Shown piece after piece: positions 9,419-12,730 of a stretch of DNA of 33,482 nt. A program made the position numbers and the translations under genes. The stretch is from a virus, in the IMG/VR virus record IMGVR_UViG_3300030380_004565, positions 14,181-47,662 of that record; one strand, written 5' to 3'. The notes below the pieces were generated by a model. It saw only the letters and a program-made list of their open reading frames with translations, did not search any database and was not told where the DNA came from. How positions within the stretch are numbered: the stretch's first letter is position 1; every line of letters begins with the position of its first letter.

Positions 9419-9446
9419 TTGATTATTGTTGCAAGTATGCAATACT
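9419..9446 (+). promoter_or_regulatory. Promoter TTGATT-N16-AATACT for the ncRNA
   Basis: On the + strand TTGATT, 16 bp, AATACT; expected start near 9452-9453, exactly where the 15-mer ATTGGCTTTTTGACA begins. That 15-mer also begins the predicted transcript on the opposite strand at 12248, which supports this promoter over the overlapping TTGCAA-N16-TATTGG. Confidence 0.5.
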
Positions 9447-9451
9447 TACTT

Positions 9452-9772
9452 ATTGGCTTTTTGACAGATAAATAAAGGAATCTTTCAGAGGATTTTGAAA
9501 GGTGGCTCGTAAAGAGTTCAGAGTATCGAAAAGAATCTTCCTGCTTTTAGTAAGCGAAAGACATACAAAGTATCCTAGGATAGGCTTGTATCTCTCTCCC
9601 TAACGAAGTTCATAGAGGCGCTTATCGAAACTACCTGCTCAGAGTGGTAGCTGAAAGGCTAGGTTGCAACCCTAACACCAATTGAAATTCTCTGAAAGAT
9701 TCTAACAAAGAAAACTCCTTTCGTGTTAGTGCTGAAAAAAAGAGTGGGTAGAAATACCTGCTCTTTTTTTAT
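9452..9772 (+). ncRNA. Structured non-coding RNA (~320 nt)
   Basis: No ORF is present. GAATCTTTCAGAG (9478-9490) pairs with CTCTGAAAGATTC (9690-9702), a perfect 13-bp closing stem. Inside it are TAAGCG/CGCTTA (about 9561 with 9620), ATACAA/TTGTAT around TATC-CTAG-GATA, CTACC/GGTAG (9631-9650) and several GAAA-type turns. After the closing stem, CTAACA/TGTTAG forms a hairpin, then a terminator. It is the only + strand transcript within the reverse-strand cluster. I looked for and did not find the conserved cores of RNase P, 6S RNA, tmRNA, SRP RNA or a group I intron. A regulatory or host-takeover RNA is possible. Confidence 0.6.
9735..9772 (+). terminator. Terminator of the ncRNA
   Basis: AAAAAAAGAG-x-GGGTA, loop GAAA, TACC-x-CTCTTTTTTT. 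A-rich and T-rich sides make it usable from both strands. Confidence 0.8.
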
Positions 9773-12129: not shown

Positions 12130-12248
12130 TACCGAAGTATCCAATACTCGTTATGTTCAATGATGAGGAGTTTCAGTCTGCGTATCCTCTTGAGTTGATA
12201 ATTCCTGTAAGGTCTTATCGGTAGATATTCTGTTGTCAAAAAGCCAAT
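12130..12248 (-). ncRNA. 5' leader RNA of the 12021 operon
   Basis: Predicted to start at 12248 with ATTGGCTTTTTGACA, identical to the start of the 9452 ncRNA on the other strand. TACCGA (12218-12223) pairs with TCGGTA (12130-12135) and ATAT/ATAT extend it past a mismatch; inside are GAGG/CCTC and AGTAT-TGG-ATACT. It continues into copy A of the two-hairpin element and then the 12021 gene, a leader of over 220 nt. Confidence 0.45.
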
Positions 12249-12680: not shown

Positions 12681-12730
12681 TAAGCTCCCCGCACAAATTT
12701 TCAAATGAATCAATGCGCTCCGACATTGGC
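12681..12730. repeat. Imperfect direct repeat flanking terS, left copy
   Basis: Begins TAAGCTCCCCGC and includes ATGCGCTCCGACATTGGC. Aligned without gaps to 13200-13249, about 37 of 50 positions match by my count. It overlaps the first codons of the small terminase frame. Confidence 0.5.

Follow-up and report, generated by a model that had tools for sequence, protein, structure and literature searches.

According to sequence comparison, the plus strand of the window (the whole 33,482-nt stretch of DNA analysed here) encodes a structured RNA that belongs to a genuine and still unnamed class of phage RNA, with about 20 loci in uncultured phages, the window included. We base this conclusion on the lack of an encoded protein, the lack of a match to any catalogued family, and a fold preserved in about twenty phage sequences. 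An earlier note on this DNA had already proposed an unclassified structured phage RNA, and the proposal is sustained by the negative Rfam result and by covarying homologues at about 20 uncultivated viral loci. Both family and fold are well supported by the comparison. As judged against Rfam, the RNA family is new, and an earlier report outside Rfam is possible; the mechanism of the RNA may be of a known type despite the new family.

The window spans positions 14181-47662 of a 47.7-kb IMG/VR record (G+C 35%), in the whole of which the RNA is present as a single copy. Terminase, head and tail genes run rightward from window position 12705 on, and many small genes run leftward from ~12.1 kb down to 2.3 kb. 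Upstream, the IMG/VR record also encodes a WhiB protein (Pfam E 1.7e-25), which suggests that the host of the virus is probably an actinobacterium. The earlier note had described the RNA as lying opposite to all its neighbours, and this is correct for the immediate ones but not for the terminase and structural genes, which share its strand. It had also given the RNA ~320 nt (9452-9772); the RNA itself covers ~9473-9706 (~230 nt), and 9707-9772 is its terminator tail. In agreement with the note, which had seen no ORF there, that stretch is free of reading frames of 60 aa or more. The features of the window are the following:

9441-9446, plus strand: -10-like hexamer AATACT, 8 nt upstream of the boxA-like site; weak for the window copy alone
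9455-9474, plus strand: boxA-like leader GGCTTTTTGACAGATAAATA, where transcription is inferred to begin; found in other leaders of related phages
9473-9706, plus strand: structured RNA, as delimited by the covariance model
9478-9499, plus strand: P1 closing stem, 5' strand (helix 1, two-sided changes in all 11 pairs)
9506-9508, plus strand: P2 5' strand CUC, partner GAG at 9642-9644; 51 of 51 paired (17 sequences), two pairs with double changes
9514-9516, plus strand: P3 5' strand GAG, partner CUC at 9638-9640; 51 of 51 paired, double changes in 3 of 3 pairs
9517-9543, plus strand: core strand 1, UUCAG-AGU-A-UCGA-A-AAG-AA-UCU-UCCUG, in antiparallel pairing with core strand 2
9544-9608, plus strand: variable arm, 63-87 nt among the members measured; its proximal stem (helix 6) covaries
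9571-9582, plus strand: palindromic distal loop UAUCCUAGGAUA, core CCUAGG; equivalent loop in 17 of 17 members
9609-9637, plus strand: core strand 2, UUCAU-AGA-GGCG-CUU-A-UCGA-A-ACU-ACCUG, from the alignment; swapped with strand 1 in L174 and L193
9638-9644, plus strand: 3' strands of P3 (9638-9640) and P2 (9642-9644), from the hand alignment
9648-9661, plus strand: P5 hairpin UAGC-UGAAAG-GCUA; 68 of 68 paired, double changes in 4 of 4 pairs
9662-9671, plus strand: P6 mini-hairpin or dimer palindrome GGUUGCAACC, from the alignment
9676-9702, plus strand: P1 closing stem, 3' strand, from folding and alignment
9741-9770, plus strand: intrinsic terminator with a T7 tail, from a terminator scan; conserved in L003 and L002; may act in both directions
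Ends at 2134, 4484, 5986, 6749, 8239, 9340, 9826, 10178 and 10761, plus strand: TTGGAWA elements

Folding of the plus strand gave -98.8 kcal/mol (z -3.4, with 0 of 100 shuffles equal), while the minus strand folded worse (z -2.6). Folding energy by itself carries modest weight, and it is the comparison among relatives that decides. RNAalifold returned 37 consensus pairs from 17 sequences, 27 of them with at least one two-sided change. Pairing was found in 89.8% of the alignment cells, compared to 69.6% in shuffled and 35-46% in slid controls; deriving the structure from the same alignment puts the slid versions at a disadvantage, yet this alone falls far short of explaining the gap. Cells with a two-sided change numbered 121 versus 41 in the shuffles, and 0 of 500 shuffles reached any of the five measures. 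A hand alignment of the members agrees with the computed structure and has G-U pairs retained on one strand. The resulting architecture consists of a long closing stem (P1), two short helices (P2 and P3), a pseudo-twofold core, a variable arm and two small 3' hairpins. P3 is found as GUG/CAC, GAG/CUC (the window), GAC/GUC, GGU/GCC and UUG/CAA. Two structural claims of the earlier note were recovered here: the perfect 13-bp closing stem, evident in both sequence and folding (GAATCTTTCAGAG at 9478-9490 pairing with CTCTGAAAGATTC at 9690-9702), and the internal helices, backed by folding and by the hand alignment of relatives. Regarding other candidates, protein coding was rejected (no ORF on the plus strand, and length differences of the arm that are not multiples of three), as was a retron-like RNA, considered because of the closing stem, since a scan of ten neighbouring proteins revealed no reverse transcriptase.

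The two strands of the core are similar to each other. Their general forms are UUCAUAGU-N-UCGA-A-AAG-AA-ACU-UCCUG for strand 1 and UUCAUAGU-GAG-CUU-A-UCGR-AA-ACU-ACCUG for strand 2, with antiparallel pairs AGU/ACU, UCGA/UCGR, AAG/CUU and ACU/AGU, and the helix they form has like internal loops on either side. Since the core pairs are nearly invariant, covariation says little on this helix. What carries its pairing is a single compensated change, in the window, where UCU/AGA replaces ACU/AGU, together with an exchange of strands: in L174 (9966-10193, minus strand) and L193 (6188-6415, minus strand), which look like one virus population, the core strands are swapped as units, so that the helix is kept but reversed end for end. 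We have taken this exchange as independent support for the core pairing.

Starting from relatives of the terminase and of the ArdC/IrrE-like gene next to the RNA, we reached four contigs that carry the RNA at the same place; a fifth, more distant contig was reached through a 15-base conserved word. With a profile of these six sequences (the window and its five relatives), applied to loci selected with the core motif CTTATCG..AAACTACCT, we detected about a dozen distant full-length relatives with E values of 3.9e-17 to 2.9e-37, as well as others that were partial or rearranged. The covariance search suggested by the earlier note then matched 20 loci, the window included, with E values from 4e-22 to 8e-56 and no other match below 0.04 across 463 kb. 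The scores of 17 of these loci are partly by construction, because the same 17 were used to build the model; those left out of it were L174 (9.5e-31), L193 (9.5e-31) and the truncated L200 (3.9e-22). At the window, itself among the model-building sequences, the RNA at 9473-9706 scored 201.4 bits on the plus strand (E 3.6e-50), compared to an E value of 0.58 on the minus strand. Matches in other terminase-clade loci were weak and at noise level (E 0.045 and worse). L171 and L192, which are both ends of contig IMGVR_UViG_3300025070_003546 with an exact inverted terminal identity of 1.9 kb, were counted once; the RNA near both ends of this contig reflects either a terminal inverted repeat or an assembly fold-back.

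No family of Rfam 15 (4227 families) reached its gathering cut-off in the window or in the distant members, a result that covers GOLLD, ROOL, OLE, 6S, SRP, RNase P, tmRNA and group I introns as far as the library includes them. For the window, this agrees with the failure of the earlier note to match RNase P, 6S, SRP, tmRNA or group I introns, and no refuting match came from the scan that it had called for. With relaxed thresholds, the window gave only low scores far under the cut-off, mostly at the terminator, and five distant members gave no match across the RNA. Besides, when 50,697 phage genomes were searched by BLASTN with the window and with four to five diverse members, the outcome was either nothing or only chance matches of ~30 nt, and no member of the family was detected in cultured phage records. 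In 84,980 species genomes, a scan by pattern yielded 12 matches, none of them scored by the family profile, and scans with other core motifs gave no additional members among the matches listed.

On the 5' side of the RNA lies a conserved leader element that, from its sequence, we read as boxA-like, that is, as a putative antitermination signal of the rRNA type. The boxA-like site GGCTTTTTGACAACAGAATA is present on this side in 9 of the 17 members, the other eight being without a clear boxA. In these phages, the leader pattern GGCTTTTTGA[CTA]A, often followed by a ACAGAATA-like sequence, stands at the head of further transcripts as well, for example that of the leftward genes at window position 12245, and it has 13 matches in 2.17 Mb of the remaining loci. 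In the rRNA leaders of Gram-positive bacteria, the corresponding place is often occupied by TTTGA. Compared with the gamma-proteobacterial consensus GYTCTTTAANA (PMC5725501), the leader agrees at 9 of 11 positions. The promoter-like sequence of the earlier note did not hold up: a scan for consensus sigma-70 promoters gave 0 matches, and the TTGACA it had pointed to lies inside the boxA-like element. A -10-like hexamer tends to occur 8-9 nt before the boxA-like sites, the summed match to TATAAT over 18 sites being 77 versus 65.6 when shuffled (7 of 2000 as high). A second promoter-like site with a boxA-like leader, from window 12245 down to ~12070 on the minus strand, heads the leftward genes; the conserved stretch ACCGATAAGACCTTACAGGAATTATC comes after that leader, and likewise in L038, L032 and L011. 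This region may be another structured leader RNA.

Regarding the 3' side, the terminator claimed by the earlier note is present as a T7-tailed terminator-like hairpin at 9746-9770, found also in L003 and L002, with 0.6 terminator-like sites expected by chance in the stretch. Terminator-like ends were detected in the window and its four closest relatives (L003, L002, L099 and L107), and in L099 and L107 the U-run adjoins P1. The sequence after the RNA is promoter-like in L186, L176 and L173 and holds different ORFs in L196 and L170; an ORF that has a ribosome-binding-like site starts within ~30 nt of P1 in L196/L184 and in L170. An ArdC/IrrE-like gene lies near the RNA in the window and L186 groups, and a KTSC-domain gene in L186 and L170, but no downstream gene is common to all members. 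Because terminators, promoter-like sequences or different ORFs come after it, the RNA does not seem to be the leader of a single gene. Its orientation is constant: in 12 of 12 records (about six lineages) that allowed the small or large terminase to be located, the RNA lies upstream of the terminase and on its strand, and this holds in the window clade although the intervening genes are antiparallel. We regard this as a lead only, since about six lineages would agree by chance at a few per cent. tRNA genes numbered 0 in 21 sequences. An element resembling a tRNA (acceptor and T arm) lies ~1.1 kb downstream of the RNA at L173:9995-10075 (minus strand); its score against the tmRNA model of Rfam is 32 bits, below the cut-off of 47, and ARAGORN reports no tRNA there. 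In L198 and L177, a non-coding stretch (GAGAGAGCTTTATAGGACATATT...) ~100 nt past P1 is conserved almost letter for letter, and L101 and L199 have long ORF-less stretches downstream of the RNA.

Two loops of the RNA are palindromic. Over the 17 sequences, the distal loop of the arm reads CCUAGG in 8, ACUAGU in 3, CCAAUUGG in 2 and CCANUGG in 4, the last with a central mismatch when read as a palindrome. CCUAGG and ACUAGU cannot close on themselves as hairpins, because only two bases separate the innermost partners. The inner P6 sequence GUUGCAAC varies to AUUGCAAU and GUUCGAAC and is palindromic each time; UUGCAA/UUCGAA fit a palindromic change, with the UUCGAA variant occurring once, and so do CCUAGG, ACUAGU and CCAAUUGG of the distal loop. 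The outer pair of P6 is A-C in 6 of 17, and an alternative drawing of P6 is a short hairpin whose loop is UGCA. A GC to CG change inside a palindrome was used as support for inter-chain contacts in GOLLD and OLE (PMC12286853); by analogy, the palindrome-preserving loop changes of the window family make homo-oligomers through these loops plausible.

The simplest account of these observations, favoured over its rivals, is an independent trans-acting RNA gene. Our leading though tentative reading, to which we give somewhat less than an even chance, is a free-standing phage ncRNA gene that forms a boxA unit, like a miniature rRNA transcription unit, and whose product would act in trans and self-associate. 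Transcription would begin at or beside the boxA-like site, and boxA would load host NusB/S10 onto the RNA polymerase, shielding the untranslated RNA from Rho as in rRNA operons. The transcript would fold into the ~230-nt stem-closed structure and, in the window clade, be ended by its own terminator. Its action in trans would most probably be that of a homo-oligomer held together by the distal arm loop and the P6 palindromes; a role as scaffold or decoy during infection is a guess. Somewhat less probable is the fuller description of a new phage RNA class that combines a boxA unit, symmetric homo-oligomers via two palindromic loops and a pseudo-twofold core with exchangeable strands.

One could argue that the RNA works in cis. 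HK022 put and lambda nut are phage RNA elements in antitermination, and nut contains boxA; similarly, boxA and the fold could let polymerase pass a terminator towards the terminase and late genes. The boxA-like leader, the constant orientation upstream of the terminase and the other boxA-like leader at 12245 agree with such a model. However, a terminator directly follows the RNA in the window and four close relatives, the genes of the next 2-3 kb lie on the opposite strand, the next gene in L186, L173 and L176 seems to own a promoter, and about half of the members are without a clear boxA. In comparison with put and nut, the window fold is also larger and, in the window clade, followed by a terminator. 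Hence, cis antitermination accounts for boxA and orientation but not for the terminators and intervening promoters, and we consider it unlikely. A regulatory element or riboswitch in the 5' UTR of the next gene is improbable: the ORFs close to P1 in L196/L184 and L170 would suit it, but there is no shared downstream gene, and in the window clade the terminator is followed by an antiparallel gene.

An antisense or sponge RNA, pairing with other RNAs, appears slightly more improbable still. The orientation antisense to the neighbours in the window clade is what it would predict, while the RNA is positioned between genes rather than over one and has its most conserved letters in the structured core. 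Lower again we place a packaging RNA used by the terminase complex. The pRNA of phi29 is a phage RNA that self-associates through loops, and the palindromic loops and constant orientation ~5-18 kb upstream of the terminase genes recall it, position being the only link of the window family to packaging; against this are the large distance to those genes, the ordinary small and large terminase of these phages, the lack of Rfam resemblance to pRNA, and the fact that the common orientation may merely reflect a shared early operon. Finally, a DNA site without RNA, that is, a palindromic site for protein binding or recombination, would explain the palindromes but is effectively refuted by covariation (27 pairs with two-sided compensatory changes), with G-U pairs kept on one strand and a covariance model that scores a single strand, and we give it hardly any weight.

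Compared with known systems, the independent RNA gene that we favour resembles the homo-oligomeric GOLLD and ROOL RNAs (PMC12286853) in being phage-encoded and structured, with no fixed protein-gene partner. In contrast, GOLLD and ROOL measure ~600-800 nt and are often near tRNA genes, whereas the window RNA is ~230 nt, without Rfam match, and its family is free of tRNAs in the sequences scanned. With the boxA leader of rRNA operons (PMC5725501) it has in common a boxA-like site near the transcript start, here inferred, ahead of a stem-closed non-coding RNA, although no rRNA is present here and the putative boxA departs from the gamma-proteobacterial consensus at 2 of 11 positions. Phage RNA classes of this complexity are few. 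GOLLD and ROOL assemble into cages made of RNA alone, and the window family would be a further, far smaller class; because it is small and has a defined fold, in vitro work on structure, oligomerisation and binding partners would be cheap. Besides, the boxA-like leader suggests that non-lambda phages may borrow the rRNA antitermination machinery for ncRNA.

We also observed that the nine TTGGAWA elements of the window are intergenic and G+C-rich within a 35% G+C genome, measure ~50 nt each and contain 2-3 tiny hairpins, with TTGGAWA at the 3' end. Sites of this type number zero in L173, L170 and L196, and 4-12 in the related contigs L003, L002, L099, L107 and L020.
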